DNA of 64,000 bases from Asparagopsis taxiformis. Taxonomy: Eukaryota; Rhodophyta; Florideophyceae; Bonnemaisoniales; Bonnemaisoniaceae. The stretch is from assembly GCA_030407315.1 (NCBI GenBank), contig JALQPE010002421.1, positions 28,631-92,630 on the forward strand, given 5' to 3'. The position numbers and the translations under genes are program-made. The notes beneath the pieces are model-generated. The model did not search any database, was not told the origin of the DNA, and saw only the letters and a program-made list of their open reading frames with translations. Of the stretch, positions 1 through 64,000 are shown one piece after another (the stretch's first letter is position 1; each line of letters begins with the position of its first letter).

Positions 1-2
1 AG

Positions 3-476
3 GGATCTGAGAGCGAATCGAGGTTAGGGCGTGCTGAACCTGGAAGCATCGTTCAAGCAGTGTGCAAAGATGGATGGTATGATGCTGGTATAGTAGTACC
101 CGCCCATAGCAGGACGAGCATGGAGGAATTCACATGTTCCAGACGTGTCCTTTTCGTCACATTGTCATTTTTTATTGTGGTAGGGCAAGGAGAGGAGAAG
201 AAGGCAAAGAAATGGAAGCAGAAAACTCCATATGCTGTCTGCATTCCCTTGACATGCACTGGAGACGGTATGTACCGGAAAGGTGGGAATGATACTATAG
301 TTCACGTTGAAATGAACGACGGGGTCCGAGAAGTTTTGCACGTACATAACTGCGAGTCAGGAGTTTGTTTATACGATAGACAAAGTGGCATTGTAGAGCA
401 CAATAGTGATATTCTTTCTGGTGGTGAAGTGAGCGTCTTAACTAGAGAAGATGGATACCCACCACGTTCAGCATAG
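3..476 (+). CDS. CACTA-like transposase, C-terminal fragment (copy 1)
   Basis: The reading frame is open from the window edge to the stop at 474-476, so this is the tail of a gene that begins off-window. It aligns along its length with the last ~150 residues of the transposase at 55157-58075: both share a hydrophobic patch (LSFFIVV / LAFFIL), a Y-[AG]-V-C motif, a valine-rich VEM strand, an NC-x-S-V/G-V-C segment and the C-terminus GYPPRSA / GFPPRAA. The catalytic residues are outside this fragment. The equivalent position, just upstream of a ParB-dioxygenase gene, is occupied by the transposase in copy 3, which supports the assignment. The internal ATG at 60 is not the true start. Whether the full copy-1 transposase is intact cannot be seen. 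Confidence 0.65.
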   Translation, partial: GSESESRLGRAEPGSIVQAVCKDGWYDAGIVVPAHSRTSMEEFTCSRRVLFVTLSFFIVVGQGEEKKAKKWKQKTPYAVCIPLTCTGDGMYRKGGNDTIVHVEMNDGVREVLHVHNCESGVCLYDRQSGIVEHNSDILSGGEVSVLTREDGYPPRSA

Positions 477-735
477 AGTGTTCCAGCACAGTGTTTAATA
501 CATCAGTAAACTTTCGTAATTCATTTAGCAGCAGTCCTGATCAAGTCTTCCAACAAATGCTATACAAAATTTGTACATGTCGTTTGAAGAATAGAGTGGG
601 ATTTTGTTCCATGCGCAAAAATAAAGTGTGTTTTGCGAAGAGCGTACGCACTTACGTACGTATGACGCCATTGGTACTAGAGATGGAGCCGCGAGTTGCA
701 GGACTCCTAGTTCCACAAAGTTGAGTTCGCATAAT

Positions 736-925
736 CCAATGGAGAGCTGGCACCTTGCCAATGAAGTGGAAAATAATACCCGGTATAGTTTTCTGGCTCC
801 AGTGACAAGTGGAGTATTGTGACTGATGGCTGTCTGCTGGCCAATGGGGAGCCGGCACCTGGCCAATGCAGTGGAAAATAATACCCGGTATAGTTTTTTG
901 GCTCCAGTGACAAGTGGAGTACTAT
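736..925. repeat. Pair of compound palindromes, copy-1 family (gap 1)
   Basis: Two tandem ~85-90 bp units start with CCAATGG at 736 and 841. Each carries AAAATAATACCCGGTATAG, then TTTTnTGGCTCCAGTGACAAGTGGAGTA. The AATAATACCCGGTAT core here is slightly degenerate on its right arm compared with the other copy-1 gaps. They fill the gap between the transposase stop and the first ParB-dioxygenase gene. In the rest of 477-1183 I see no gene. Confidence 0.8.
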
Positions 926-1183
926 GATTCATGGCAATGGGATGGTTTTGGGAACGAAGGAATTGTGTGTGGGAAGTCCTTCATCGAGGAATGACAGATG
1001 GCCGAATACAATTGGAGCGCGTGGAAGGTGAATCAATAACTGATATTTCACGTTTAGACGTGTAGGGAGATCGTTTCCCGCCAAATACCACCTTGAAAGA
1101 GGAATATCTCTTGATCGTGTAGTCGGAGAGAAAAGGTATCTTTGTTATCCTGAACGGCTTCTCTACGCGTCCAAATCTTTGCA

Positions 1184-4100
1184 ATGGCCGGAAGCGACAC
1201 TGAGCGCGCTGCGGAACCAAAGGATACCGTCGAAAGCGTTGCAGAGAGACTTGCAACGACGGTAGGCGGTGATAAAACACCCTCCGGAGGTTCTGCTGAT
1301 GGAGGGGCTCCGTCTGCAGCGGGAAGGGAGACGGCAGATAGCCAGACACCCATTCAGGGAGCAGACGCTGCCATGATAGAGGCAGCAAAAACCCTTGGTG
1401 ATATATCACCATCTGGGAAAAACACTCTACGCTTTCCATCTACTCCTGGGACGGTGAAATCGAAAAACAGGGAGAGGTCTAACGTCCGTGAAGGCGAGGG
1501 GAGTCCTGCTGGCATGGAAGCATCAGAAGAGTCTGTGATGGGGATTGACATCAACATTGTCGAATGCAGGACTGAACCTAAAATGATCAATCCGCTAGAT
1601 GTTGCCAAACCGGAATCAACTTCTCGTCTTGTGCAGGAGGCCAGAGTGCGCGATCTGGTCAGCAAAATATCTACCGAGGGGTTTCTGGAAACTGGCACCC
1701 GAATGACCATCTGTGAAACAATGGGGTCAGACGGACGGAAGAAACTGCAGTGCATTGATGGAGGTCATCGTATCAGCGCTTTGCAGTCGATTTGGAAAAC
1801 AAACCGACAGTTGCTGATCGATGGAGACTGAGGAGCATTAGCGTTGACTTCATCCGACCACCTGGAACCCGTGAAATGTTTCATCCTCTTGAAGTGATGC
1901 GAATATCGCAGAAGCTGAACGAAAAGACTCATGACGTGATAGAAGTTTCTATTGCTGACCACGTCTGTACGGTCATGAAGTTCATGATGATGAAGGGCTT
2001 GATGAAGGCGAAGGTAAATGTGTGCACAAAAGTTGTAGTCGAGAACAAGGTCATTCCAGGTTGTCAGGAAGGAATCATGATGAAGTACGTTTCGATTGCG
2101 CAGGGCTTCGGAGACGTAAATAACCCGGCGTTCGAACATTGGTCAGCTATCCCAAGTCGATTTGCAACTGAAACTAGTCCGCCAGACTCGAAGAATATGC
2201 AGGGATGCACTGTGGACGTCCTATTCGCTTCTGCGTTTCGAAAAGCTTCGGTGGACACCAAACTTGTCATTCTAGAGCTCACTGCAATGTGGACGATGTG
2301 GAAACGTAGGAAAGGAGATGGTGGTATAAGTCTAAAGACATGCGCGCAAAAGTGGTGCTACAGCATGTGTGAAATATATGACATACTTGAGAAAGCTGTA
2401 CGGAAAGAAAACTCCTGGCATTCCTCACCTCATCCATGTTTCAGGAAGTTACATGAAGTACCGGAGCCAGGTGGACGAACACGAAAAACCATACGATATC
2501 GCATTTTGACTGTCCTCAAAGATTTCTATCCTTCCGACGCACCAACTGGGAGAGGTATACGTGCAGCATTGACGCGGTCTATGATGAAAGAAATCCGTTA
2601 TGTGGTTTTCAACGGCCCAATTCTATCGGATGACTCTCTCGACCATTCCGTCGCGCCTGAAATAGGTGTGCAGGAAAGGCGGACTAGGCGAAAATCCTTG
2701 GAAGGGAATACTGCACCTCAACCACGACAACAATCCGCATCGTATGGTGATACTTCAAATGCTGCCATTGATCGCTCGGACGTGGTACAGAGTCCAAATG
2801 TACTTACCCAACAGCAGACACAGGGCAGTCTGGAAATATCGGATCGTGTTAACGCTGAGGTCGGTGCTGCAACACAGGTTGGTGAAGAGGCGACAGGGAA
2901 AGCGGCAGATTCCGAAAGCGCAAAGCAGGTTACAACGGACCGCGCAGTGCCTACTGCGCCAACCGAGAACAATTCTTCGAAACCTGGAGATTGTGAAGTT
3001 GGGGATGTGTTGCAGAAGAACGTAGGAACTCAAGAGCTTGAACCAACTGGTGCAAATCGAGGAAGAAATGACCACGGTGATGAAAATGACCTGCAACAAT
3101 CACCTAGCCCAGTGGCAGCCGGAAGTGCCACGCTCAGACCAGAGCAGGGTGGAAAGTCGCCGGCGAATATGTCAGTTGGTCATCCAAGAACTGGTCGAGA
3201 TGGTGAAGGAGGTCCTGAATCTAGGAAGAGCGATGGGTCTGGAACGAAAGATGTCCGCGAAGAATGTCCCGAACATTCTTCTGGAAGGACAACGGAGGAC
3301 CCGATGAAAGGTGTACGAAATCAGGGTGATGGCACTGGAGACGCTATGTTATCTACAGCGGATGTCGGCCTACCTGTTTTACCTGAGCTGGAGGACACGG
3401 AAACACCTGTTACCAGTTCTACGCCTAGGAAGTTGATGAAAGCCAAGCACAGCAGTGGTTTCGTGCCCTTAAAGGCAAAGCCGAGGAATACGGAGACGCC
3501 GCCAATGATTCTACGATCCAAACGGAAATTGGTGGATGTCACCCCTCAAGAGGTTATTGACCTGGTGGGAGAGGATACCAGCAGGCCGCGGTGAAAGAAG
3601 AAGCAAAAGATGCGTGAAGACGCAAATTTGCAATCCGGCAAAGACGCTGCAGTCCACGCGGTTCAAGGAGGTCAGTATTCGAACAGGCAACAAAATGATG
3701 TCCCTGACAAAGATGTGGAGGAAGGTATAGAAGCGAAACTGCCTGTTATCATTCATCCCGACAGTCGAATGAAATACTATGTGAATGGGAAACTGGTCGA
3801 TACGCTTCGAGCCGAGGTCGCTGAAGCAGCAGCGAGTGCCTATTCGGCACAAAATGTTTCCGCTGAGTTTCTCTCGAGGGCTTATTTCCGAGAGAAACGA
3901 AATGAAATAGACTTGGTTGGGTTTACAATTCTGGACGGAATATTCAAGTCTTCTACTACTGCAGATGCGATCCACGAACTGCTCCTTCATTTTTCTGCGT
4001 TGTTTGAGGAACGTCTCGAGGATGCCAAGAAGAACTCTGAATCCGGTGACACCCGCAGAGATCCGGACTGGACACCGTGGTGCATGGCTATGATGGATGG

Positions 4101-4707
4101 GAAAAACTCTGATGAAGAAGGTGAGAAGGGCAGAGGAATCTTTATAACAAAGCGGAAGAGCTTATGTGATGACCTCGAGGATAACAATAATAATCTCTAT
4201 CGGAAGAAGATGATTGTTGAGCTCGGTCTAGGTATTTGTGCGGAAGGTTTGGAATTGAGGACTAGTGGGAAGGACCCGATGGCCTTCCCCAGCACTGGAA
4301 CTACTTTAGTGCTGACTGGAGAGCGGACTAAACCTCGTGCTGGACATACAGACTATGAAGTGGGAATCGATGAAGTTAACAGTCCCCCTTCTCCGCCATC
4401 CTACTTCATGATGTCAAGCGGCGCAGATGGATTCGGCCTCGTGCTTGCACCCTACAGTCATGTCTGTTTATCCCATCCCAACAGAGAGTTATACAGAGTT
4501 CCAATGAAGAGGTGTGAAGTACCACCATATTCTGTTCTTGTCTGCCGAGGGGATGTTTATCACCACGAGGAAGGATTTGAGAGCAATAAGGGTCTTCAAT
4601 ACAAGTTCCCGATCCGATCTCACATATTCCTCAAAACTGAGCAGCATCAAAGTGAAGAAGGAGAATATGTCGTTGGACATTGGGAGGGCAATTCGAAATT
4701 GAAGTGA
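1184..4707 (+). pseudogene. ParB-like / 2OG-Fe(II) dioxygenase fusion, broken copy (dioxygenase 1 of copy 1)
   Basis: Translated in pieces, this matches the intact 938-aa gene at 5734-8550 from end to end. It begins at ATG 1184 with a disordered, Ser/Gly-rich stretch, followed by a ParB/Srx-like domain with an IDGGHRISALQ motif near 1755-1790. The frame is lost at about 1790-1830 and continues one frame over (SVDFIRRPGT-like segment conserved with its paralogue). A helical region follows to about 2500, then a long acidic/Pro-rich linker. An in-frame TGA lies at 3592-3594, after which the same frame runs to 4707. The C-terminal part has the dioxygenase signature: H (4345-4347)-x-D (4351-4353), distal H (4561-4563) and R (4615-4617). 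So the metal and 2OG ligands survive although the gene is split by one frameshift and one stop. Introns are an alternative explanation for the breaks, but the intact paralogue has none. The gene is probably dead, or yields separate ParB and dioxygenase proteins. Confidence 0.7.
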
Positions 4708-4960
4708 TGAAGGGCATCTGTCCAGCCGTGTTGAAGCCTTAGTTGGGTATGAATCCGTAGAGTAATAAACACAATTCCAATAGAACATGATAAAAGAGAT
4801 ACTGCATGGATTCTTTATATAGTCAGATCAACTTCACAAATGTAACAAACACCACATGCAGAAAGCTATTCTCCACAGAAAGCTCTACCTACAGGAGCTG
4901 CAAATTCTAAACCTCTTCAGTAGATGCAAGAAACGATAGCAGATAGTAAAACCTGGTATT

Positions 4961-5300
4961 ATATTACATCGTTCACTATCCCCGGTAAAATTTTCAGTTC
5001 CTGAGAACAGGAGTCTGGCCGGGTATAAAGTTGGGTGGGTGTAGACCAAGTGCACCAACCCCATTGCCTGGGGGTACTCCGGATAACCTCAGCCAATGGC
5101 GTTGGTGCACCTGGCTTTTGGGAGGCCAAAATAATACCGGGTATTATTTTGGGTCGGTATAGACCAAGTGCACCAACCCCATTGGCCGAGGTTGTCCAAA
5201 CTACCACCGGCCAATGGCGTTGGTGCACCTGGCTTTTGGGAGGCCAAAATAATACCGGGTATTATTCCTAGTTTCTCAAGCCAGGTGCAGTGCACTCATT
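4961..5300. repeat. Compound palindrome cluster, copy-1 family (gap 2)
   Basis: Two full cores occur at 5128-5150 and 5246-5266 (AATAATACCGGGTATTATT). They are flanked by mirrored blocks: CCAATGG...TTGGTGCACCTGG on one side and CCAAGTGCACCAACCCCATTGG on the other, so each unit can fold into a long imperfect hairpin. Degenerate half-cores (CCCCGGTAAAA, GCCGGGTATAA) lie near 4980-5030. The rest of the gap, 4708-4960 and 5301-5733, shows no gene. Position: between the two tandem dioxygenase genes. Confidence 0.8.
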
Positions 5301-5733
5301 GGCCGAAGCCCACTTATTCGTGGTTCATGTTGAATACAGACGCATTTGGTATGTACGCATCAGCTCCACGAGTTGGTGCAAAATGCTGGGAAGTATGTGA
5401 CTTCAGCATTATGTAGTTATTACTTGAGTGGTTTTGGGGTAATCACCATGACCAACTCGTACCTGTTTAGCCACTTTGAGTATGAACTCGTCGTATAGCG
5501 ATTGTATTTGGCCGCAGAAATTAACTGAATTTCGAGTATTACTCTTGATCTGAGTCAAGTGGTCTAGAAATAAACAAAAAATTGAAATCAGAGTTGAAAC
5601 GGATTGTTCACGTTTGATCCTTTATCAGACTGCAGTAGCGAAATAAATCTATCTTAATCGTCTCTGTATCGTCGTTATCGGGGTCGTACACTCAATCAAG
5701 CTTCTCTCCATTCCTGCTTTCCCTCATCCTTCA

Positions 5734-8550
5734 ATGGCTCCTCGCACTCGCTCCAAACCCTCTGCCCCCGCCCCTGCTCGCGCTTCGACTCGCGGTCGGG
5801 CCTCCGCTCGCTCTCGCGCCCCTTCTCGCTCTCGCGCCCCTTCTCGCAGCCCTGGTCACGATAACTCTGTCACCGCCGAGGTTCAGTTGTCAGACTGTCC
5901 CAAAGCTGACCACAGGCTGTCTCCCTTGGATTTGCACAGACCCCCCCTATTCTCTCGTCATATTAGGGAAGGGAGAGTGCTTGAGCTGAAGGAGAAGTTC
6001 TTGAGGGAAGGATTCACCTCCTCAATCTCCCGAATCCTTGCCTGCAAAATGCTCCTTCCTAGTGAAGGCAGCACAACCCCCACCCTTCAAACCTTTTACA
6101 TCGATGGTGGCCATCGCGTTGCGGCTCTCCAGAAGTGCATTCGTGAAGACCCGGAAGGGCAACATCCGTATGCTGCTTCATTCAGGAACATCGATGTGGC
6201 TTTGATCAGGCGCCCAGGGACAGAAGAAGTTTCCGATGAGTACTTCACACCTTTTGAAGTACTCGGGCTGTCCATTCAAGCAAACACACTCACACATGAT
6301 GTTGCCCTTGTTTCTTTGGCAGACCGAGTGTGTTCTGTGGTCCAACTGCTCACGACCAAGGACATGCTGGGTGAACCGAATCGGAAGTGCATTCAGGTCA
6401 TCATGGACAGCCAGTTGTCGATATCGAAACTGGGCTACCAAGCCATCAACAAGCACGTGACTGCTGCGAAAGGCTTCCGGACTGTGAACAACAAAGCGCT
6501 TGAGTTCTGGAGTTCCGTACCGAGCATGTTCACCAAGGAAATTCTCGCTGCGGAACAGGAAAGGGCCGTTAAAGAAGGCCGTGACATCAACGACGATGTC
6601 TTCAAGCAGTCCGTAGACATGTATGGCTGCAACATGGATCTCGTTTTCATGGCAGACTTCCGTCGCGGCTCGGAGTATCAGCAAAGGTTCATCTTGCTCA
6701 TAACAGCTCTCTGGACACGCATGCGAGATCTGCGTCAGTTGAGTAGGACGACAAGAGGATTTGGTAATCCTTTCGTTCGTGTTTTGATTGAAGTTTTCAA
6801 GATGTCCGAGCCGGTTGCTGCTCACAAAAAGATGGAGCCTCCGCTCGAGCATTTCTACTCCGAGCTCAAGAACACTGGGTCAGGAAAGGAGACTGTTATT
6901 GCGAACAGTATTGCGGAGACCCTCCTGCACTTCAATACCGACGACAACAGCGGTACGAAGCATGCTCTCGTCTCCGACGAAATGTATGAGCAGCTTCGCT
7001 TTTCCACGGGCGTTGTGGACATGGAAGAAGACCAAAGGGTCATTGTTCACAATGAACAGCCATCTGAAGATGCGCCGAAGCCATCTACGCCCCAATCAGA
7101 TGAGCCTTCTACCCCTTCTACCCGTTCTGGTCCTACTCCTCCTGCCCCTTCTACCCCTCCTGCTCCTTCTACCCCTCCTGCTCCTCGTGCTCATTCTACC
7201 CCTTCTACCCCTTCTACTCCTGCTCCTACTACCCCTCCTGCTCCTGCCACTTCCGTTCCTGCAGTTGAGCAGGCTCAAGGAACCCCTGATGCCACTGTGG
7301 CAGGTTCTGAGAAGCAATTGGGATCTGTTCTCCTCCGTCTCCCTCTCAATGCACCCCCGGTTGCGGTGAATGAGCCAGTCGAGACACTTCGCAGGTCGAA
7401 ACGGCAGAGAACGGAGAGTCTACGGGTTGGCGGCGACAGTCAGGCAGAGTCGGAGGTAGAAGAAGAGTCCGAAGAGCCCCTTCCGAAGCGCAGAAGACTG
7501 GAATTTAACCGTACGGTTAAACGTTCAACCGAGGAGATTCCATTGTTCAGCGATGAGCAGGAAAATCCCCTCCCCGACAGGGTAGTCGATGAACGGATTA
7601 TGGATATTCTCCCGAACACCATACCGTCAGACTCTAGGGTCAAGTACTATATCGACAGCAAGCTGTACGAAACAATCCGACAGGAGATTTTGAGTGCAGC
7701 TGCTGCCGATATGAATTGTATAGCGTGCAGTGGTCCAGCTTGCTGTGCAGAGAAGTTCTTTGCAACAGCTAGGTCAACTCTCAATCTCTTGGGTGCCCAT
7801 GTACTCAGTGGTATCTTCCGTTCTTCGACTGTGGGCAACGCAGCACATGAACTGTTCACGTTCTACGCCCAGAAGTTCAAACCTGTTCATTCTTCTGCTG
7901 AAGACAGTTCCAATGATCCCTGGCATCAGATTCGAAACAAGGGTGAGGTAACAGCAGAGCAACAGGCCTCTCGTTTGGGAAGGTTCTCTATCTCAAGGAA
8001 GAAGATTTGCGACGATCTCGAGCAGATGGATGAACATCAATTCAAGAACAAGATGATTCTCGAGGTCGGCAAAGCAATCTGTGCCGAGCTAATGTACTTG
8101 GGCCTAGGAATCCATGAGCCTGTGGCCTTTCCTAAAACCGGTTTACGTCTTTTGCTGACCTCTGATGGTGCTCCAGATCAAGACTTGCACACAGACCTAC
8201 CGGTGGTCATCAATGATTCCGATTTCCCACCTGGAAGATCGTACTTTCTGATGGCAAGCGCGGCTGATGGGTTCTGGCTTCGTGGAGCGTATTTCAGCCA
8301 CGTCTGTTTGACGCGTGCAGACGCTGAGAAGTACAAGACGCCTGTTATGGACATCTACGTGCCACCGTATTCTCTCTTCATCGGTCGTGGTGACTTCTAC
8401 CATGGAGGCAAAGGATTCAGTAGTTCAGCGGAAAATCGCCTAACATATGGTCTTCCGGTTCGTTCTCATCTCTACCTTTTAAGTGACGAAGAAGAATTGG
8501 CGGATGCTATCGAAACAGTCAACTACTGGGATGCACCTAGTGCGCGATAA
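5734..8550 (+). CDS. ParB-like / 2OG-Fe(II) dioxygenase fusion protein (intact)
   Basis: This is an uninterrupted 938-residue frame. Residues 1-50 are an Arg/Ser/Pro/Ala-rich basic tail with repeated SRAP units, which could be DNA-binding or nuclear-targeting. A ParB/Srx-like domain spans about 55-180 and has the DGGHR motif at about 124-128, matching the DGxHR box of ParB/DndB-like folds. A conserved helical part follows (about 180-400). Residues about 445-515 are a Ser/Thr/Pro repeat encoded by a CCTTCTACC-type microsatellite (7087-7260). Basic NLS-like clusters (RRSKRQR, PKRRR) precede the C-terminal domain, about 625-935, which contains the double-stranded beta-helix signature H819-x-D821, H890 and R910. 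In known families these residues bind Fe(II) and 2-oxoglutarate. The substrate is unknown; a nucleic-acid base (as for TET/JBP or AlkB) is an inference from the ParB fusion and the adjacent methyltransferase. It is the only one of three paralogues in this window without breaks. Start: first ATG, with a short clear 5' region. Confidence 0.7.
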   Translation: MAPRTRSKPSAPAPARASTRGRASARSRAPSRSRAPSRSPGHDNSVTAEVQLSDCPKADHRLSPLDLHRPPLFSRHIREGRVLELKEKFLREGFTSSISRILACKMLLPSEGSTTPTLQTFYIDGGHRVAALQKCIREDPEGQHPYAASFRNIDVALIRRPGTEEVSDEYFTPFEVLGLSIQANTLTHDVALVSLADRVCSVVQLLTTKDMLGEPNRKCIQVIMDSQLSISKLGYQAINKHVTAAKGFRTVNNKALEFWSSVPSMFTKEILAAEQERAVKEGRDINDDVFKQSVDMYGCNMDLVFMADFRRGSEYQQRFILLITALWTRMRDLRQLSRTTRGFGNPFVRVLIEVFKMSEPVAAHKKMEPPLEHFYSELKNTGSGKETVIANSIAETLLHFNTDDNSGTKHALVSDEMYEQLRFSTGVVDMEEDQRVIVHNEQPSEDAPKPSTPQSDEPSTPSTRSGPTPPAPSTPPAPSTPPAPRAHSTPSTPSTPAPTTPPAPATSVPAVEQAQGTPDATVAGSEKQLGSVLLRLPLNAPPVAVNEPVETLRRSKRQRTESLRVGGDSQAESEVEEESEEPLPKRRRLEFNRTVKRSTEEIPLFSDEQENPLPDRVVDERIMDILPNTIPSDSRVKYYIDSKLYETIRQEILSAAAADMNCIACSGPACCAEKFFATARSTLNLLGAHVLSGIFRSSTVGNAAHELFTFYAQKFKPVHSSAEDSSNDPWHQIRNKGEVTAEQQASRLGRFSISRKKICDDLEQMDEHQFKNKMILEVGKAICAELMYLGLGIHEPVAFPKTGLRLLLTSDGAPDQDLHTDLPVVINDSDFPPGRSYFLMASAADGFWLRGAYFSHVCLTRADAEKYKTPVMDIYVPPYSLFIGRGDFYHGGKGFSSSAENRLTYGLPVRSHLYLLSDEEELADAIETVNYWDAPSAR

Positions 8551-8881
8551 TCTGCAAGAATACTGCTTTGCCTCTCCCTCTACAGGCAGCATCTGCCAAT
8601 CCTAAGCTAGCTTCGGTAGTATACTTCCTTTACCACAACTAAATCTACTCCTATTCATGACTTTGAAAATATTAGCACGGTCAGTCTACTGCACTATTAG
8701 AGTTCCTCTACCTCTCACCCCGCATAGCTTCTACACCCTACATCGTACAGACTGATCTCTTTTCCTTTCCTACATGCATGGCACAGTTTTGCAAGACTGC
8801 CACAATTCCACATCACTCGAGTAACCAAGGTCTTGAATTGTTCTTCTTAGTATACTAACTATAGTTGAGATGCAAACCTGG

Positions 8882-9085
8882 CAGCCAATGGCAGAGCTGC
8901 ACTTGGGCTGGCCACACCCAAAATAATACCCGGTATTATTTTGGCATGGCAAAGCCCAGGTGCAGCAATTCCATTGGCTGCCGCTGCGTTCATGACAGCC
9001 AATGGCAGAGCTGCACTTGGGCTGGCCACACCCAAAATAATACCCGGTATTATTTTGGCATGGCAAAGCCCAGGTGCAGCACTAT
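8882..9085. repeat. Pair of compound palindromes, copy-1 family (gap 3)
   Basis: Two near-identical direct copies about 114 bp apart carry the perfect core AATAATACCCGGTATTATT inside AAAA...TTTT (8920-8942 and 9034-9056). Each core is bracketed by CCAATGGCAGAGCTGCACTTGG on the left and CCCAGGTGCAGCAnTnCCATTGG-like sequence on the right, so each unit forms a hairpin of about 85-90 bp. They sit between the convergent 3' ends of the dioxygenase (+) and the methyltransferase (-). 8551-8880 and 9086-9240 contain nothing else I can identify. Confidence 0.85.
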
Positions 9086-9240
9086 CATTGGACGTGGGCT
9101 GACTGGCACCGCTCAGCAAATGAAAGTCTGTTATTATCGCTCAGGTAGATTGTAGTACTACAACGTTGTACGAGTTCAGATGCAAGACTTTTTATTGCTG
9201 ATGGTACTCTTGATATCTGTAATTGGACGCCTAAACTGTC

Positions 9241-51950: not shown

Positions 51951-52475
51951 GCACTGTCCTGGGCAGTACCTGGAGACAGTGATTTTCACTGTCCTGGGCA
52001 GTACCTGGAGACAGTGATTTTCACTGTCCTGGGCAGTACCTGGAGACAGTGATTTTCACTGTCCTGGGCAGTACCTGGAGACAGTGATTTTCACTGTCCT
52101 GGGCAGTACCTGTAGACAGTACTTTGTGCTGCCCTGGGCAGTACCTGTAGACAGTACTTTGTGCTGCCCTGGGCAGCACCTGTAGACAGTACTTTGTGCT
52201 GCCCTGGGCAGCACCTGTAGACAGTACTTTGTGCTGCCCTGGGCAGCACCTGTAGACAGTATTTCGTGCTGCCCTGGGCAGCACCTGTAGACAGTACTTT
52301 GTGCTGCCCTGGGCAGCACCTGTAGACAGTATTTCGTGCTGCCCTGGGCAGCACCTGGAGACAGTATTTCGTGCTGCCCTGGGCAGCACCTGGAGACAGT
52401 ATTTCGTGCTGCCCTGGGCAGCACCTGGAGACAGTATTTCGTGCTGCCCTGGGCAGCACCTGGAGACAGTAAAAG
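51951..52475. repeat. 35-bp tandem repeat array, about 15 units
   Basis: The unit is TGTCCTGGGCAGTACCTGG followed by AGACAGTGATTTTCAC. It drifts along the array to TGCCCTGGGCAGCACCTG(T/G)AGACAGTA(C/T)TT(T/C)GTGC. Each unit holds an inverted GGCAGYAC/CTGCCC-like motif derived from the subterminal repeats. Frames of 122-147 residues across it are repeat artefacts. Confidence 0.9.
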
Positions 52476-54272: not shown

Positions 54273-55160
54273 ATGGCTCCGAGACGGACTCCTATTCGAA
54301 AGAAAACCACAAGTCGTAGGACAAAGGCGAGATTCGATTCACTCAATGTGGCCAGTCCCAGTAAACAGCTTCCTGGGAAACTGCAGGGAGAAATCCGCAG
54401 CAGTGATGCAGCCTGCATGAACAAAGAAATCCCGAGAGGTAATGAGCTACGACGTGAGTGTACCACAGATGACCTATTGGAGTCCCCAATCCCTATGGGT
54501 GACACAATAGAAGGTTGTATTGATGTGTACAGCAACAACGATGAAGCTGGAAGTGACATCTACGTAGCATCGAGCACGCTAATGGAATCGGAAGAAGCAA
54601 CCGGACGAGGTTCTGATTCCATTTCAACTGGAGGCCCGATAGACCGAAATGCTGGGGATGAAGCATGTGGTGATTTCAAGGCATTACTACAATGGCCTGC
54701 GATGTATGGGGCTCTTCAGCTGAGTGGAACTCAAAGAATGACAAGAGCCCACTATGAAGGTACCCTGTTCGGAATGAATTTCCGCAGAGATCCAAGTGAG
54801 CACGTCCCGTCGGACTCTGTGATGCGACAGAAGATACTACCATTCTTGAGGAAACACTGCTATGCAAAGAGCTGTGACATCGAGTTTCCGATAGACCTTC
54901 GAAAGAGCGGAGCAAGAGCTGCACAGCATCGAGGTGCAGTAGGAACCCGTGGAACAACAGATGACAGAGACAATTGTGGAGGAATGGCGAAAGTTCGTAT
55001 TGTACTCCCAAGCACATGGGCTCTGAAAGATGTCCAGACTCGACCAATCTTTAAAGCATTCCGCAGTGATGCGAACAATCGAAGCTCGAAGGAGAAAAAT
55101 CAACCGCAGAGTGCAGCATTGAAGATTCGTTCATTGCAAAGTGCAGGAGGGGTGTTTTGA
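54273..55160 (+). CDS. N-terminal part of the CACTA transposase, or separate small ORF
   Basis: 295 residues starting MAPRRTPIRKKTTSRRTK, a basic NLS-like tail, followed by acidic/Ser-rich disorder (to about 125) and a conserved-looking segment (LQWPAMYGALQLSGTQRMTRAHYEGTLFGMNF..., VMRQKILPFLRKHCYAKSC). In Plavaka/CACTA-type transposases a segment just upstream of the catalytic core often matches this kind of sequence. The stop at 55158-55160 overlaps the -1 frame of the next ORF, which has no ATG for ~95 codons, so the two were probably one protein of about 1266 residues, joined by a 1-nt indel or a frameshift at GTTTTG (55154-55159). Confidence 0.5.
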   Translation: MAPRRTPIRKKTTSRRTKARFDSLNVASPSKQLPGKLQGEIRSSDAACMNKEIPRGNELRRECTTDDLLESPIPMGDTIEGCIDVYSNNDEAGSDIYVASSTLMESEEATGRGSDSISTGGPIDRNAGDEACGDFKALLQWPAMYGALQLSGTQRMTRAHYEGTLFGMNFRRDPSEHVPSDSVMRQKILPFLRKHCYAKSCDIEFPIDLRKSGARAAQHRGAVGTRGTTDDRDNCGGMAKVRIVLPSTWALKDVQTRPIFKAFRSDANNRSSKEKNQPQSAALKIRSLQSAGGVF

Positions 55161-58075
55161 GCGACCCATTCGTTCGCACAGCAGTTGTTCCCATTGACAG
55201 CGATGGGAAAAAGGGTTTGAAGCACATTTATGTACCTGATGGAACAGCAATTCGAATCCGATGTCATCCAGGAGCTCGTCAGGTTGCCGTCATCGAAAGA
55301 GCAAAAGGGTTCAGGAAGAATGACAGAGATGGTGGGAAACCGAAGAGGAGAAGAGTGGCGGTTACGTCGTTGTGGGAACTTCATGCTAGGACCATAGTTA
55401 CCTATGAGGCTCGACACGACGGTGAGCATGATGTGCATGTCGAAAAATATCTGCAGCCGCGAATGTCACATCTATTGGAATGGGAGAGGCAGCATGCTCT
55501 GCGAGCGATATCGCAATGTGTAATCGGAGCAGGAGCCAAGGGAAAAGAAACACGAGCTGGGGACGTGATAACCGTTCTATTACCAATTGGAATGGAAGAG
55601 GGTGATATTGTTCCACACGTCGTATTGGTGAACAGGTATTTGAAAGAGCAGGTCGGAGAAGCATCCACCATGTTACTTTGCTTTTCACCGGGCGCGAGCT
55701 TTGCTGAAGCCAGAAAACCGCCCGATAGACTAGGAAGCCCCAACTATGAAGAAATTCGTGTTTCAGGGGTGTTCTCGGATGGTTTCGGAGACCACAGGTC
55801 GCAATGGCACCCAGCGTCTCCGCGAGAAGATGCACCATGTTGGGGAAAGCTGGAGGATGGTCGAAACTACTTTGTTTACCGATTTCTCCTTTACACGGAT
55901 GACTTTGAACCATTCACAAGCAGGAAGGGAAGTTTTGGTGGATGCTATATGTTACCTCTCAATCTACCGCCTCGGAAAAGGGGAAGCTACCAAGCGGTTC
56001 GAGTGATTGGTTTGCCACCTCCGGGAGTGTCCACAAATTGTGTATTGCGATATATCGTTCAAGATATAGTGCGAGGAAGCACAGAGGGTTTCCCAACGAA
56101 AAATGCAGAGGGAGAAGATATTGTGGTATTTCTAGACCCAGTGGGGAGCATTGGAGACTATCCTGCAGTTTCACATACCCTGGATGTTCTTGGACACACA
56201 TCAAACTCTCCGTGCCACATCTGCAGTTTCCGCAAATATGACCTGAGCAGTACTGGTGGCACGAAGAATGCATACACTTCGGTAGTGAACGGGCAAACAT
56301 CGACGCATGCCAGGAGCAAGTATCGGAATGCATCGACACGTAAGGATGCCACAGAAACCCAGCTTCGCACTCTCGGACTGGCTGCAGAAGAAGGGGAAGA
56401 TTTACCATTTCATGTCCTGAGCACTTCCTTGGAAGCAGTGCAGGAAGAAGTACCGAAGACGGAAAACGGAGTTTCAGTTGTCCCAGCAATTTTTGACCCG
56501 TACCGTTCCGCAGTGATAGCACCTGACCATCTATTGTCTGGACTGGCACAAGATGTACTGAACGCTTGTATTTCAGCTGCCAGCCCACGAATTCGAGAGG
56601 TAGCTGAATTGCAAATTCTGGGCGCTCTGAAGAAGTTCAGGATGGGAAGGCAGAACCGTTTATTTGGAACCAACAATCTGCTTTCCATGAACATGAGTGA
56701 CATATTCAGTGTGCTTCTGATAGCACCTATGGCATTCGAAAACGCAGCTCGAATGATGGATGGGAAAGGGGAAGGTCATCGTGAAAAATTTGATGGGGCC
56801 GTCAAACTAGTAGTGATGTTTCAGAAGCTGGTTTCGTGTATTAGTTTCATGCCCGTATGGTGGAAAGACGGTCCCCATGAAGTAGAGACGGCTGACGGAG
56901 AAGGTGGCAGGAATGAATACATTCTGGGAAGAACTGTAGACTACGTGGAGACGTTGAATGAGTATTGTCGGAAAGTGAAGGGAGCAGGAGCACATTTGGA
57001 CAAGCCTAATGTTCATCGTCTTGTCGAGTTTTGTGTTCATACGCTTCCTGCCTACGGCTCTGTGAAGCACGTGCAGGAGCTTATATTCGAACGGATGCAT
57101 CAGCCGCTGAAGAAAGGTGTGAGAATGTCCAATCACCAAAGCGAACAGCTTTCAGCGCTGGAATTAGTTCTTGCGGATGACTGGCAGACGAGAGTGGCCA
57201 TTGTTTTGCGCGAAATCGGCATGGAGCCACAACATTGGTCCTCGTCCGAATGCTCTCAAATGGTCAACGTTCTTTCACAGGAGCTAGGGAGAGAAATAGA
57301 TGTGGAAGACGAGGTAGTGAAAAACTGCTTCCAGGAACCGGTTCTCCAGCTTCTCTCCCAGCGTCGAGGAAAGATATTGTCGGCGGATGGTGAAATTGTG
57401 ACGTGGAGAGGGCATGGAGGTATATCTATTGACGAGGTCAAGGAGTACATGAATGGAAAATGTGATATGGCAGAGGGTGCTGTAGGTGTTTTCAAACGGT
57501 TCTTTACCGAAAGGTACGGAAGCGGAACAAGCGGGTGTGGAAAGTATGCCGAATGGGTGAGAAGAGTTTCTAGAAGCACTACGACAGAGTGGGGAAGGAA
57601 AACAGTGCAGAGGTCTGGCTCTCTAGAATCAGGAGCTATCATCCATGCTGTTTGCCCTGAACAGATGAAATGTGAGGATGGTGCAACTTCACAAGCGATT
57701 CTGTACCCGGCGTCTCGTCTCACATCAGAGATAATGCGGGGAAGAATTAATTATGAACCGCGGTTTTTTATTGTTCTAGCGTTCTTTATCCTGAGGAACG
57801 AGAGTGCGAGAGATGAGCAAGGTACAGCTTATGGAGTTTGCCTGGGTTTGCAAAAAACTGATGAAGGAGTGTTCAAGGTCGAAGAGAGGCGACGAACAGT
57901 AATTGTGGAGATGAGTGAGGGAGTCACTGAGGTGTTTGGTATGCACTATTGCAATGGGAGTGTATGCGAATATGATGAGAACATGAGGGAGGTAAGGCAC
58001 GGACCCGGACTGCTGGAGGGTGGAGAGATATATGCACTATGTAGGCGAGACGGATTTCCACCGAGGGCTGCATGA
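55157..58075 (+). CDS. CACTA/Plavaka-like DDE transposase
   Basis: About 970 residues in frame. The RNase H-fold catalytic region is recognised from the first Asp in YTDDFEPF (about residue 249) followed by LPLNLPPRKRG, the second Asp in GDYPA with LGH then CHIC a few residues later (about 337-359), and the likely catalytic Glu in ELIFERMHQPLKKG (about 637), preceded by KPNVHRLVEF. This D / GD-P-A / C-x2-C / E-x2-H-x2-L-K pattern belongs to the CACTA (tnp2)/Plavaka/KDZ-type group, and the CACTAC termini favour CACTA. The C-terminal part matches the fragment at 3-476 in copy 1. The frame has no early ATG and overlaps the preceding ORF, so this copy carries a frameshift or uses one. It would excise and insert the element. 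Confidence 0.7.
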   Translation: MSDPFVRTAVVPIDSDGKKGLKHIYVPDGTAIRIRCHPGARQVAVIERAKGFRKNDRDGGKPKRRRVAVTSLWELHARTIVTYEARHDGEHDVHVEKYLQPRMSHLLEWERQHALRAISQCVIGAGAKGKETRAGDVITVLLPIGMEEGDIVPHVVLVNRYLKEQVGEASTMLLCFSPGASFAEARKPPDRLGSPNYEEIRVSGVFSDGFGDHRSQWHPASPREDAPCWGKLEDGRNYFVYRFLLYTDDFEPFTSRKGSFGGCYMLPLNLPPRKRGSYQAVRVIGLPPPGVSTNCVLRYIVQDIVRGSTEGFPTKNAEGEDIVVFLDPVGSIGDYPAVSHTLDVLGHTSNSPCHICSFRKYDLSSTGGTKNAYTSVVNGQTSTHARSKYRNASTRKDATETQLRTLGLAAEEGEDLPFHVLSTSLEAVQEEVPKTENGVSVVPAIFDPYRSAVIAPDHLLSGLAQDVLNACISAASPRIREVAELQILGALKKFRMGRQNRLFGTNNLLSMNMSDIFSVLLIAPMAFENAARMMDGKGEGHREKFDGAVKLVVMFQKLVSCISFMPVWWKDGPHEVETADGEGGRNEYILGRTVDYVETLNEYCRKVKGAGAHLDKPNVHRLVEFCVHTLPAYGSVKHVQELIFERMHQPLKKGVRMSNHQSEQLSALELVLADDWQTRVAIVLREIGMEPQHWSSSECSQMVNVLSQELGREIDVEDEVVKNCFQEPVLQLLSQRRGKILSADGEIVTWRGHGGISIDEVKEYMNGKCDMAEGAVGVFKRFFTERYGSGTSGCGKYAEWVRRVSRSTTTEWGRKTVQRSGSLESGAIIHAVCPEQMKCEDGATSQAILYPASRLTSEIMRGRINYEPRFFIVLAFFILRNESARDEQGTAYGVCLGLQKTDEGVFKVEERRRTVIVEMSEGVTEVFGMHYCNGSVCEYDENMREVRHGPGLLEGGEIYALCRRDGFPPRAA

Positions 58076-58196
58076 TTTTTAGGGAAGAATAAAATGAATA
58101 ACCAGATGCATCACATATGAATTGTACACTCTAGGGCGGTGGTGGATTGGTGCAAAGTAGTGGGGAGAGGATCTGAGAGGATGGAGGGAGGTATGC

Positions 58197-58710
58197 TTAC
58201 AGCAAAGTCATCGTTACGATGACTTTGCTGTAAGAAAACGTTTCCATTACAGTGGCCAAGAATGTTTTACCGGGTAAAAAAATCGTGGCAGCTGTAATGA
58301 TTTGCTTTCTTACAGCAAAGTCATCGTAACGATGACTTTGCTGTAAGGAACCGTTTCCTTGCAGTGGCCGAAGAATTTTTTACCGGGTAAAAAATCAGCA
58401 AGAAATTTTACCGGGTAAAAAAATTGTGGCCGCTGTAATGATTTGCTTTCTTACAGCAAAGTCATCGTTACGATGACTTTGCTGTAAGAAAACGTTTCAT
58501 TACAGCGGCCACAATTTTTTACCCGGTAAAGAAATCATGGCTACTGTAATGTTTTCTTTTCTTACAGCAAAGTCATCGTAACGATGACTTTGCTGTAAGA
58601 AAACGTTTCATTACAGCGGCCACAATTTTTTTACCCGGTAAAGAAATCATGGCTGCTGTAATGTTTTCTTTTCTTACAGCAAAGTCATCGTAACGATGAC
58701 TTTGCTGTAA
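58197..58710. repeat. Five palindromes of the copy-2/3 family between transposase and dioxygenase
   Basis: 37-bp palindromes with ACAGCAAAGTCATCG half-sites lie at 58197-58233, 58310-58346, 58451-58487, 58562-58598 and 58674-58710. Between them alternate TTTTTACCCGGTAAA / TTTACCGGGTAAAAAA cores and inverted CATTACAG-GGCCA / TGGC-CTGTAATG blocks, forming nested hairpins. The surrounding 58076-58196 and 58711-59410 show no gene. Confidence 0.9.
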
Positions 58711-59410
58711 GAAAACGTTTCATTACAGCAAATTCATCGATAGTTAAGGTTAAGTAACCAACTTTAGGATGTCCAGAGGACCTGCTCGTTGTAAGGAATA
58801 AGGAATATTGATCAACTGACGAAGAGGAAGCATTTTGAATCGACTAGGGTAGGAACGCAATGAGATTTGGTATGCAAGAAAACTGAATCGCAGTAGTGAA
58901 TAGGTAGTTGAAATGAATTCATATTGATGTTCTTTGGTGTATTGTCCATTGGAGCACATTGAAAACCATTTATATGATCACCGTTTAAATAGTCTATGAA
59001 TCCTTTGCAGCCGAGTACGCCAATAGGAAGAAATTCAAGCAGTGGCCTGCACGGGAACCGTTCATTTGTGAGTAGCAAAAGTTAGTGTAGAAATGAATTT
59101 TTCAGACTTGTAGGAGAGGTGGATCGTAGTAAATGTATAAAACTCACGTAGAATCGATTGATAGGAATCAATGGTACGGAAGAAGAAGCGAGGTGGAGAG
59201 TGTGGATGAAATAGGTTGTTGGAATATGAATGATAATTGACGTGGTGAGGTAAACGGGTTCGATTGCATTATATGCGCTAGAGGTACATACTATTAGGTG
59301 TAGATTGATGGAAAGGGCTAAACGCTTTGTGGAGGTATCAGGATCAGGTAGAGTCAGAGGTGCTGAGCGGGTGCAGCGTAAGGTTCATCAGGACTGAACG
59401 TAGGTAGGGA

Positions 59411-62400
59411 ATGTCTTGTCCGGACAGTATAAGAGAGGAAGCTGAGAGACGGGAAGCGCACTCGGAGGTACCACAATTGTGGATTTCATCGTCTACACAA
59501 CATTTGAACAGAGAACCGATTGAACGAACTGAGATTGCAGGGATTACAATGGGAGACAATAGTATCATGAATACTACAGCGGAGAAGAGCAATTCTCCTT
59601 CTGCTGAAGAGAAAAGCATCACTATTGCTCAGTACAGCTCTTCTAAAGTGCAAGTTGATCCTCGCAAAGTGAAATTTCCGACAGTGACCTCCCGTTTGGT
59701 GCGACCGGGTCGTGTAAACGAACTGGCCAGCATTTTCATGGATAGAGGTTTCTCTACCACTGGAACTATGATTACAGTCTGCAAAATGGAAGATAACGAA
59801 GGAGACGAGTTTTACTGCATCGATGGCTCTCATCGCATAGCTGCTCTGCAACTATGCCTGGAGAAGTACTCAGGAAAGAACAGGGATTCCTTGGAATTGG
59901 TTTGGGTACAACAGTTGATTGCGCCGAACGGGCGTCTAATTTTCGATGCGCTGGAGGTTCTGAAACTGTCTCTCGAAGCCAATATACAAACTCACGATGT
60001 CGCTTCTGTGAGCATTGCCGACAATGTGTGTGCGGTCATAGAGTTTCTCAGGTTTTCCAACCAGATGGATCTTCCTGTTGTCCGGCTTATTCCTATTCTG
60101 AAAGAAGTGAGCTATATTCTGCCGTCCGACAGGAACCGTTCGGAGAACTCGTATAGGCAGTACATCAACATTGCGAAGGGGTTCAATCGCACAGACAGCG
60201 TTGCTTTCGTGTACTGGAGCTCTATCCCTAGCGTTTACAATGCTTTGGATAGGAACAGAGAAATCGAGGATGCAAGAACCGAGGGAAGAGATCCGGACTT
60301 TTCTCGAATTGACTCTGCCGATATGTACGGGTGCGTGCTCGATCTTGTCAATAACGCAATATTCCGCAATGGCACGGACGGACGCGGGACGCGCGATAAG
60401 GAGTGGTTCCAGTGGTTTGTGCTCGAGATGACAGCGTCGTGGACAAGGATGAGGAGGAGAGAGACTTGTCAGAAATATCGGAAGCGGAAGTCCGTTCACG
60501 ATGCGCACTTGGCTACTGGCTCTGTTGGCCATCTATGATATGGCAGAGGTCGTCCGCAAGTGGTTGAACTCTGCAACGATGGAGGAATTCGTGCGAACGG
60601 ATTTGGCAGCAGAAAACGCGAAGGAGGTCGGGGATAATGATCATCGCATTGGAGAGCGCATTGTATTCGTCCTTGTCGACTTTCATGACGACGTGGTAGA
60701 CAGTAGCAGTCTGAGAACCAAGAACGGGATGTTTACAAACAGTTTTTACGACAAACTGGAATATGCTACCGGGACAAAGGCAATGCAGGAGACGAAAGCG
60801 GAGGAGGAGAGGGAACGGAATCGCATGACCCCCGGAGAAATAGAAAAAGCACTTGTTGATGGCGCCAAAGCAGAAGACGAAGAAGCACCTACTGCCGCAG
60901 AACAGGGAAATAATTCTACAGAGAAGGAAACTGTGGAAACTTCTGGTCCTGTTCAAGCAGAAGAAGGAGTATCTGCCGAAGCCCAAGCAGAGCAGGAAGT
61001 TTCTGCTGTTGTGGAGGAAGAACAGGAAATTACTCCAAATGTGGTGGCTGAAGAAGTGATTCCTGCTGTCGCGACGAAAGCAATAGAAGAGGCACCTCTG
61101 AGCACCCCGAAAGAAGCAGAAGACCGTCCTGCCGCAGCAAAAGAGGGAGGACAGGAACGTCCTGCCACGCGTCTTGCAGCAGCTGAGAAGAGGGAAGCAG
61201 AACGTCTTGCTGTTCTCCAAAAAGAACAGGAACGTCTTTCAGCTTCAAGGGCAGAGCGGGAAAGTCGTGCCAGGGATAATTCGCCGGGAAGGATTGTCAG
61301 AGAAGATCTTCCTCAGGGAAGGAAACAAAGCGGCGATACGCAAAGTCTGGATATCAACTTGGACAATAGTGGTCGCATGGACATAGACACGCCTGGACAA
61401 CAAGCTGGAGATGCGCAGAACCGCTCTGTGATATTGAAACTTCGAATCAGGACACCAGAAACTTACAGCACTAGCCCGGCCGAAGTGGACAAGGAGAATT
61501 CGGGAAGAAGCAGGAGTTCTGGTGGAAGCGGCGATGAAAACGAGTCCAGGTTGGATAAGAAGCGAAGAAGGGAAGATACTAGCGCGAAGTTTTCTGAGCC
61601 CAATACGCCGGATGACAACATTGAGATTGGGCCTCCCCGGGAAAAGAAGAGTAGAGTCAATGCAAGAAAACGAACGACTGGAGAAGAAGCACCACTCTTC
61701 ACTGACGAGCAAGAAAACTCCCTTCCAGACCGCACATTCGCAGAGGACATACCTGAGAAGCTGCCTTTATGCGTTCCTTCCAACTCGAGAATGAAGTATT
61801 ATATCACAGAAGAAGACATTGATACAATCCGGACGGAGATAATGGAAGCAGCTGCAGGCTACTCTACTTTGGTATGTCCCCTCGGTTCTTGTGAAAGCCA
61901 ACAATACTTCAGCTACCAGAGAAGAATGATCGACGAGCTTGGTTACGTGGTGTTGCAAGACATTTTCTCTTCTACTACAGTGGGAGCAGCTACGCACGAG
62001 TTATTCACACAGATGGCCAGCACATTCCAAGGTACTACAAGTGGCTCAAGTGCAAGTCAGAAGAACCCGTGGAAACCACTTCGACCGAAAGACAGCACTG
62101 GTGTATTCAAGACGGACCGGAAAAGCATCTGCGATGACCTTGAGCAAGAAAGCGCGCGGCAGTACAGGAACAAGCTGATTCTGGAGCTAGGTAAGGCGAT
62201 TTGTGCGGAGAACCTGAAGCTCGGGTTTGGAAGAGAAGAAGCGGTGGTCTTTCCAGAAACGGGTCTTCGTCTGATTTTGACCGCAGAAGGTAGTCAGGAG
62301 CAACTTATGCATACCGATGTTCCCGTCCGTGAGGGAACTGGAACTGGTCCTCTCAACTCGCCATCATATTTCATGATGGCTGCTGGTGCGGATGGGTTCA

Positions 62401-62668
62401 TCATTCGTATCGCCAAGTTCAGCCATGTGTGCCTAAGTCATCCAGCGAAAGAAAGTACCGCGTGCCAGTGACGAACGTGCGCATCCCACCGTATTCCCTG
62501 CTTGTATGCCGAACGGACGTGTATCACGGAGGAATGGGATTCGCGGAGGGTCGTTCTTCGGTGAGGTACCAGCATCCTATCCGGTCCCATCTATCACTGC
62601 GAACTTCCAGGGAGAAGTTGCTACAGCCTCCCTTCAATGTCAACTACTGGGAGCGTTTAGATATCTGA
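59411..62668 (+). pseudogene. ParB-like / 2OG-Fe(II) dioxygenase fusion, broken copy (copy 3)
   Basis: Orthologous in position to 1184-4707 and homologous to 5734-8550. The first frame (59411-60538) contains the ParB/Srx-like domain with CIDGSHRIAALQ (near 59817-59850) and the conserved VSIADNVCAVIEFL helix. The frame is lost near 60480-60500. The second frame (to 62471) carries a long Glu/Ala-rich linker, NLS-like KKRRRED and REKKSR clusters, and the first half of the dioxygenase fold with H-x-D at 62310-62318. A second frameshift near 62445-62460 moves to a third frame with the distal H (62525-62527), R (62582-62584) and the family C-terminus NYWERLDI. All metal and 2OG ligands are kept, but two frameshifts split the gene. 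Start taken at 59411; an in-frame ATG at 59551 is also possible. Confidence 0.7.
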
Positions 62669-62899
62669 TGAAATTAGTTCTTAATAGCATTCTATGGCAG
62701 GCATCAAGGCCGCCTTCAAGTAAACGATGAAAGTTAGGCTAGTACATGACGTTTGCGTATGTAGACGGGTCGAGAGATATACAATACTCAATTTAATATG
62801 AGAAGGGGAGGAAACTATGGTGGGCACTACTAGAATAGAACAAGGTAATATCGCAGTCGTCTTTGGTTACAACATTGAGGTGAGGAAGGCTTACAGATG

Positions 62900-63180
62900 A
62901 TGCAGTTTCGCTGGGGTGCTGACAGCAAAGTCATCGTTACGATGACTTTGCTGTAATGATTTGATTTCTTACAGCAAAGTCATCGTACCGATGACTTTGC
63001 TGTAAGAAATCAAATCATTACAGCGGCCACAATTTTTACCGGGTAAAAAATTCTTGCTGATTTTTTTACCGGTAAAATTTTCTCACCACTGTAATCAAAC
63101 CTTTCCTTACAGCAAAGTCATCGTAACGATGACTTTGCTGTAAGCATCCCGGGTAAACGGCTTCGGCTGTAAGCGGTTGG
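62900..63180. repeat. Palindrome cluster of the copy-2/3 family downstream of dioxygenase 3
   Basis: Three 37-bp palindromes (62919-62955, 62969-63005, 63107-63143) with TTTTTACCGGGTAAAAAA and TTTTTTACCGGTAAAA cores between them. It closes with GCATCCCGGGTAAACGGCTTCGGCTGTAAG, whose reverse complement resembles the start of the 17694-18105 hairpin. 62669-62899 and 63181-63744 show no gene. Confidence 0.88.
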
Positions 63181-63744
63181 GAGTTTCGTCCGTCTCCCAC
63201 CCTGGGAAGGGTGAGAAGGGAAGTGTGGAGCCGGGAACATCGTACAACGATGGTTTGGACGACTGTTGACGGCTCTGGGGAGCACTCTGCGTCGTGCAAG
63301 CCTGGTTTGCGCTGGCTGCACTACCTGGTATTGAACGGTTCTGTGCGCAAAGTTTACTCATGAAGGAGTTAGGGTGTTGTGTACCACACCAACCATAGTT
63401 ACTAACATTTGCAGTGTACTCTAGTGATGTAATTATTATTCTAGTTTCTAGCTATACAATGATATTAAGTAAGTCAGATGTGCACAGAGCATGGTCTAAG
63501 CCTAGCACGGTAGAGAAAGATGGAAGAAAGATTGAAGGGTAGGCATGCAGAGGTATGAAGGCAGCAGTATGTGTAGACTATGGCAGTGGTAAGAAAATAT
63601 TTCATGCACCAAAGGGTGGGTAGAGTGACATTAGAGAGGTGGTGTGTAGGGGGAAGGTAGGTGGAGATGATGAAGGAGGACAACAGAAACGAGAGCGAGG
63701 GTTGAGACCAACGGCTTACAGATGGAGCAGTTTACCAGGGATGC

Positions 63745-64000
63745 TTACAGCAAAGTCATCGTTACGATGACTTTGCTGTAAGGAAAGGTTTCATTACAGT
63801 GGCCATGATTTCTTTACCCGGTAAAAAAATTCCTGGCCGCTGTAATGAAAACGTTTTCTTACAGCAAAGTCATCGTAACGATGACTTTGCTGTCAGGAAA
63901 CAAAAACATTACAGTGGCCATGATTTCTTTACCCGGTAAAAAATTCCTGGCCTCTGTAATGAAACGTTTCCTTCAGCAAAGTCATCGTAACGATGGCTTT
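63745..64000. repeat. Further palindromes of the copy-2/3 family, running off the window
   Basis: Palindromes at 63745-63781 and 63859-63895, and a degenerate third from about 63973 to the edge, with TTTACCCGGTAAAAAA cores between and GTGGCCATGATTTC blocks repeated. Confidence 0.88.

Follow-up and report, generated by a model that had tools for sequence, protein, structure and literature searches.

Do the genes that lie together in one 64,000-nucleotide stretch of the Asparagopsis taxiformis genome, encoding a transposase, ParB-dioxygenases and a ParB-methyltransferase-SET fusion (MTase-SET), travel as a single transposon, and what could such a cargo do for it? The stretch (the window) covers positions 28,631 to 92,630 of contig JALQPE010002421.1 (C2295:28631-92630 of assembly G000, which has 141.5 Mb in 3,156 contigs), and its right edge at 64000 is the end of the contig. 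The original prediction had read it as three overlapping partial copies of a CACTA element of about 24 kb. The three copies are present, but protein comparisons indicate that the window holds two families, A (copy 1) and B (copies 2 and 3). We consider it probable, on balance, that these are two related families (A of 23.7 kb, B of an estimated 26 kb) of DDE cut-and-paste transposons of the CMCT clade (CACTA, Mirage, Chapaev, Transib, Plavaka), with a cargo that would mark the element's own copies.

That family A forms one mobile unit of about 24 kb is supported by a complete copy, by target-site duplications (TSDs), by an uninterrupted insertion site and by fixed spacing between genes. The complete copy (G000:C2634:70129-93869) measures 23,741 bp, has CACTAC/GTAGTG termini and is flanked by a 2-bp TSD, AC. 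Its genes run in the order transposase (1233 amino acids, aa), ParB-dioxygenase A (1174 aa, in one frame), ParB-dioxygenase B (interrupted by TAG), MTase-SET (1169 aa), X (462 aa) and Y (507 aa). This is the kind of interval whose search the original prediction had proposed as a check (20-26 kb, CACTAC-bounded, with this gene order and a 2-3 bp duplication), and its length bears out the earlier estimate (6.5 + 17.2 = 23.7 kb).

Copy 1 (1-17693, + strand) extends beyond the window: its right end is GTAGTG at 17688-17693, its TSD is TA at 17694-17695, and its left end lies upstream, at C2295:17389. Farther out still lies a dioxygenase gene of family B that shares 98.7% identity with its counterpart in copy 3. 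Copy 1 therefore sits inside a family B element, which is copy 2. The insertion duplicated TA, and the element-free sequence equals the opposite arm of a family B palindrome. As to the occupied and empty site pair that had been suggested as a further check, the joined 118-nt uninterrupted site is matched elsewhere at 98-100% identity (best 40 of 441 scored). One of these matches is that opposite arm, and others may likewise be mirror arms of the palindrome, so that not each is necessarily an empty site.

TSDs were surveyed in 21 copies (copy 1 and 20 others), nine of which had both ends read. Six of the nine have a 2-bp TSD (copy 1, C2634, C337, C2275, C2115 and C2142; chance 4e-6), three have a mismatch (C1573, C2055 and C1579), and none of the nine has a 3-bp TSD. 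The count leaves out C2263 (left end at contig base 3, two flanking bases differing), C522 and C1572 (no contig sequence past the right end), C385 and C285 (one end only), and seven copies whose left end was not located (C291, C3005, C706, C2680, C388, C2338 and C718). The motif CACTAC is weak evidence for ends when taken alone; it occurs 37 times in the window versus 22.4 expected, a number reached in none of 100 shuffles. The ends given here rest on terminal inverted repeats (TIRs), on TSDs and on the points at which copies begin to be homologous.

Family B was assembled from its parts. Copy 3 (51594-64000, + strand) represents another family B copy, of which the window has the left part up to the contig end; its left TIR CACTACGGTGTTGA occupies 51594-51607 (+), and homology with C2123 begins exactly there. 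Copy 2 (17694-40471, +) is a right part, split by copy 1 and by a long terminal repeat (LTR) retrotransposon. Its right TIR (40458-40471, - strand) matches CACTACGGTGTTGA at 13 of 14 positions, the differing base being the outermost one. C402 joins the two parts, matching window 51590-64000 at 99.2% and 17932-21603 at 96.6%, with a second ParB-dioxygenase (28-51% identical to the known ones) between these stretches. As far as C402 extends, both families therefore run from transposase through two dioxygenases to MTase-SET; family B X, Y and right end come after MTase-SET, as read in copy 2, and the whole is probably about 26 kb long. A left end at 51594 also fits the 6.5 kb of the earlier length estimate, and we take it to lie behind that sum. 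Other candidate ends were rejected: CACTAC at 53540 as the left end of copy 3 (the TIR and the start of homology in both C2123 and C402 give 51594), GTAGTG at 52475-52480 as a right end, and 25524-26187 and 38994-39657, which are LTRs with the TSD GCAGT.

Protein identity between the families is 31-48% (transposase end 35%, MTase 41%, SET 48%, X 33%, Y 39%, dioxygenases 31-46%). Their right ends align over 60 bases with a score of 33 versus a background mean of -7.8 (standard deviation 4.7); the score is reached by four of 18,258 windows, which we take to be the ends themselves. A remoter methyltransferase relative (26-27%) at C2123:69827-70411 (+) may belong to a third family.

Family A is young: of the matches to X that were scored (the best 92 of 1,267; 98-100% identity), 91 have no stop. 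Genome-wide counts are lower bounds here because only the best candidates were scored. At least 40 matches to MTase-SET (best 40 of 3,787) and at least 37 to the family B transposase (best 37 of 2,173) include none with a stop, and the best 49 of 9,033 dioxygenase B candidates gave 90 match rows, 88 of them without a stop. MTase-SET and X are separated by 731-737 bp in 34 of the best 40 places, and for 30 of the best 49 dioxygenase B places an X is found no more than 12 kb away. Contig ends, nested inserts or the scoring of only the best candidates may account for the remaining 6 and 19.

These data bear on whether the cargo might be a set of unrelated passengers trapped between nested transposons, with no single composite element. 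The window is indeed crowded with nested insertions, and the 19 places where dioxygenase B has no X within 12 kb would fit such a view. The complete TSD-flanked copy, the fixed MTase-X spacing and the same gene order in two families go against it; C2634 refutes it unless misassembled, and we regard this explanation as extremely improbable. The claim that the genes travel together as a single unit is supported.

What kind of transposase moves the unit? The family A gene is represented in the window by its 3' end (3-476, +; 98.7% identical to P0003, 1233 aa). The upstream part of the gene (C2295:21516-28630) seems to hold a further insertion of about 5 kb, judging from distances. The family B gene (54273-58075, +) is broken into two frames in copy 3 and forms a single 1267-aa frame in P0002, with a RAG1/Transib fold (matches to RAG1 and HzTransib) and a BAH-like C-terminus, which may carry a BAH domain. 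In a 23-row alignment, D248, D334, C353, C356 and E641 are conserved at 90% or more, the pair C(2)C following the second D; the assignment of catalytic acidic residues among them is our own and provisional. H620 is conserved before E, and a second H at the H(3-4)H spacing was not identified. By its ends (CACTAC..GTAGTG in family A; a 14-bp TIR, right outermost base altered, in family B) and its fold, placement in the CMCT clade is supported. The available text of PMC12730594 gives a 3-bp TSD for fungal EnSpm and 2 to 5 bp for the CMCT clade. Because the TSD is 2 bp and not 3 bp, we placed the transposase in the clade only, with EnSpm/CACTA as a provisional superfamily; the predicted CACTA type stands to that extent.

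A Pfam scan named no family for the window transposase. Among seven homologs scanned, only P0024 matched Plavaka PF18759, under the cut-off (E 0.35), and the window's own protein gave no match to it; the termini are CACTAC and not those of Plavaka (TGT..ACA or CATCA..TGATG), and the 2-bp TSD is not the 8-bp TSD of KDZ (Zisupton). Relative to Transib/RAG1, the present elements differ in ends, length, cargo and the BAH-like tail. Pattern matches to the transposase numbered 24 in viral contigs and 27 in prokaryote contigs, and none of them was confirmed.

The cargo's central gene encodes, in copy 1, an intact protein of 1169 aa (9241-12750, -; motif DGAHR 77) with a ParB-like domain, an N6_N4 methyltransferase and a SET domain. 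The family B gene in copy 2 (18297-21774, -) has a frameshift near 19111-19202. Pfam identifies N6_N4_Mtase and SET in both, as had been claimed for copies 1 and 2, with E-values of 1.2e-13 and 7.6e-16 for PF01555 and scores of 25.3 and 31.2 bits for PF00856 (cut-off 22.4). The catalytic motif DPPF 667 precedes the S-adenosylmethionine motif DLFSGT 848, and the relatives are DpnA, CcrM, MboIIA and RsrI; the enzyme thus looks like a beta-class N6-adenine methyltransferase, presumably adenine-specific. MTase-SET matched only itself among 7,999 candidates in a protein search, and a phage collection gave a single weak match to the methyltransferase (22.6% identity).

Gene X is intact in copy 1 (13482-14870, +; 462 aa, no family match) and open in copy 2 (22279-23640, +; 453 aa), and comparison with solved structures gave nothing notable. 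Its N-terminus (window 13482-13781 and 22279-22566) is well conserved in both families, at 39% over some 100 residues, has no database match and looks like a Tudor/Agenet-type domain. Gene Y of copy 1 (15817-17001, -) is broken, running 394 aa to an in-frame TAA, whereas that of C2634 has 507 aa. In copy 2 (23916-25445, -) the open frame continues to 25769 within the LTR, the start being probably at 25445.

Dioxygenase A of copy 1 (1184-4707, +) is broken by one frameshift and one TGA, and dioxygenase B (5734-8550, +) is intact, with 938 aa. The iron/2-oxoglutarate motif HxD...H...R is found in B (HTD 819; H 890 in RGDFYH 885; R 910 in PVRSH 908), with equivalents in A; the family B dioxygenase C of copy 3 (59411-62471, +) is broken, and its frame ends before H and R. 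Support for the earlier TET/JBP label comes from this motif, which is common to many 2-oxoglutarate enzymes, and the label should be taken as provisional: dioxygenase B has no Pfam family match at E ≤ 10. In a protein search it matched nothing among 8,000 candidates. Could the enzyme be a TET-like eraser of 5-methylcytosine (5mC), freeing the element from 5mC silencing, a role proposed for the TET+ transposons of fungi? The motif in A and B and the transposon-borne TET/JBP genes known from fungi (PMC12730594, in its accessible part) would agree with this. The missing Pfam match argues against it, as does the failure to find a C5-methyltransferase (PF00145) in the assembly. The latter is a weak test in a eukaryote, since the control genomes (10 of 14 positive) were prokaryotic and MT-A70, likewise not found in the assembly, gave a signal in none of the controls. 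We consider such a role improbable. Dioxygenase B varies in open-frame length, from 946 to 1027 aa, among copies otherwise 96-100% identical (best 49 of 9,033); matches split near residues 450-510, which suggests that the proline-rich middle has changed in length.

Do these proteins share a device for finding their own DNA? ParB-like domains had been predicted in all of them. PHROGs comparisons bear this out for the MTases (phrog_1033, E 6e-5 and 0.0056) and for dioxygenase C (0.017); neither dioxygenase B nor the A1 piece matched a ParB family. On the DNA side, the window holds 16 perfect palindromes with arms of at least 12, versus none in five local shuffles. Fourteen are family-specific cores, those at 11100 and 51637 being the others. 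The core sequences are AAATAATACCSGGTATTATTT in family A (8 sites, with one match of 5 mismatches, at 4944, excluded) and ACAGCAAAGTCATCGTWACGATGACTTTGCTGT in family B (12 sites). Family A cores lie 3' of the transposase (771-896; cores at 771 and 876), 3' of dioxygenase A (5126-5267; 5129 and 5247), 3' of both dioxygenase B and MTase-SET (8918-9058; 8921 and 9035) and 3' of both X and Y (15046-15158; 15046 and 15137). Those of family B lie 3' of MTase-SET (17694-18105, the target of the copy 1 insertion), of the transposase (58190-58730, five cores) and of dioxygenase C (62922-63893, five cores). Under spacer classes of our own, palindromes occur in seven of eight spacers that adjoin the 3' end of a gene versus none of five that adjoin only 5' ends (Fisher p 0.0047), the exception being the family B X-Y spacer, which is on the 3' side and has none. 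Strict cores fall in 3'-side spacers elsewhere too (8 of 8 in C2634 and 13 of 13 in C402). The palindromes may act as addresses for ParB, as transcript ends or as insulators. Separately, the subterminal zones are rich in short repeats, GGCAGT/ACTGCC in family A (right end, 17326-17660) and GACAGT/ACTGTC in family B (right end of copy 2 including the TIR, 40130-40471; left end of copy 3, 51608-52471, including a 35-bp tandem array).

The ends, the family A TSD, the gene order, the nested insertion and the many near-identical copies are features of the assembly itself; from predicted activities we infer, in addition, a self-marking cargo. The transposase, with its DDE core and BAH-like domain, would mobilize the unit through the CACTAC ends and subterminal repeats. 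MTase-SET would put N6-methyladenine (6mA) on element DNA and methylate nearby histones, and the ParB-dioxygenases would oxidize modified bases of element DNA. ParB-like domains, together with the family-specific palindromes, would confine these activities to the element's own copies, which would thus remain in permissive chromatin, be transcribed and be mobilized. We favor marking for permissive chromatin because 6mA goes with H3K4me3 and transcription in eukaryotes having robust 6mA (PMC12695648, accessible part) and because of the many open-frame copies.

Several points weigh against this proposal. Robust 6mA is found only with AMT1, an enzyme other than the present one, and inhibition of H3K4me3 left 6mA unaltered (both from the accessible part of PMC12695648). 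The SET domain matches KMT2C/D only at E 0.1-0.5, too weakly to suggest a substrate. An AlphaFold2 model of the ParB-dioxygenase (mean predicted local distance difference test score, pLDDT, 36) is too poor for judging a double-stranded beta-helix fold, and a ParB-ParB profile comparison was weak (probability 8.7%, P 0.0039). The absent Pfam and ParB matches of the dioxygenases, the bare X-Y spacer and the three mismatched TSDs belong here as well. Finally, non-specific nicking has been reported for a bacterial ParB-methylase (PMC5512222), which argues against recognition of the palindromes by ParB domains.

This last report feeds a different explanation for the same transposon, in which the cargo serves transposition or self-limitation: 6mA and histone methylation would silence the element, or ParB would nick DNA and the MTase and dioxygenase would protect or process intermediates. 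The nicking enzyme is that of B. cereus, and the available text of the same source reads ParB domains of phage polyvalent proteins as nucleoside triphosphate-regulated DNases; moreover, bdelloid N4CMT, likewise PF01555, is reported to help transposon silencing (PMC8885841, accessible part). Dozens of near-identical open-frame copies do not suggest self-silencing, however, and the SET fusion points to chromatin. We see this explanation as possible, if somewhat unlikely. Self-marking might also take a stronger form, a portable chromatin system with a reader (the BAH-like tail), fused 6mA and histone writers, two ParB-dioxygenase erasers, and 3'-end palindromes as ParB-read addresses, by which families A and B could each mark only themselves; this form is speculative, and we hold it doubtful.

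How new is such an element? The original prediction overstated the novelty of a cargo-bearing CACTA element, as giant red-algal EnSpm elements, algal transposons with ParB-methyltransferase genes and oomycete transposons with SET genes have already been published. The statements that follow reflect the accessible parts of the sources cited. Chondrus crispus EnSpm families (Kojima, Bao, Jurka 2013, Repbase Reports) have 16-20 kb and 4-5 open reading frames (ORFs) (PMC6431247). Compared by description, they are giant and multi-ORF like the present elements (23.7 and about 26 kb, six genes in the complete copy), and the two may be of the same lineage. Petroll et al. 2025 (Bostrychia genome) are cited in PMC12477816 for giant EnSpm of red algae with several accessory genes and for ParB-MTase-like proteins in the transposons of these algae. 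Ectocarpus Sola1-1_Ec32 (21.5 kb) carries a 1104-aa protein with ParB-like and N4/N6 methyltransferase parts opposite its transposase, but belongs to another transposase superfamily, and neither SET nor dioxygenase is mentioned (PMC12477816). HarbingerS and MuDR transposons of Phytophthora (an oomycete) carry a SET histone methyltransferase gene; these are again other superfamilies, and fusion to a DNA methyltransferase is not mentioned (PMC12730594). Fungal TET+ EnSpm, Plavaka and KDZ elements are similar in being dioxygenase-carrying DNA transposons, some with CMCT transposases, but their dioxygenase is a recognizable TET/JBP, and ParB is absent from that text (PMC12730594). Bdelloid N4CMT (PMC8885841) and retrotransposons bearing DNMT (PMC5890265) resemble the present case in that a DNA methyltransferase was acquired or captured and is linked to chromatin or to self-methylation; N4CMT bears a chromodomain and is not presented as the cargo of a transposon, while the DNMTs are C5 enzymes in retrotransposons. 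In the literature searched, judged by titles and the openings of abstracts and with Repbase Reports and most subscription journals outside its coverage, we found no ParB-methyltransferase-SET fusion, no CACTA element with this gene set and no self-addressed epigenetic identity of a eukaryotic transposon like the portable system outlined above.

If the cargo works, a mobile element would directly control how its own copies are marked, in DNA and in histones, beyond evading host marks, and a genomic parasite might in this way govern the chromatin of those copies. The many near-identical open-frame copies in an assembled 141.5-Mb genome make the idea testable. A likely histone-reader domain on the transposase would bear on insertion-site choice by giant transposons.

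The window also holds two Gypsy retrotransposons identified by Pfam, with a higher G+C content. The first (25524-39657, +), nested in copy 2, has LTRs at 25524-26187 and 38994-39657 that are 97.6% identical, and antisense ORFs at 36168-38757. The second (41843-51593) has a chromodomain integrase; no right LTR was seen up to the contig end, and copy 3 seems to be inserted into it. A segment inside the first element (32625-33363) is 86% identical to 41843-42599, in the left LTR region of the second.

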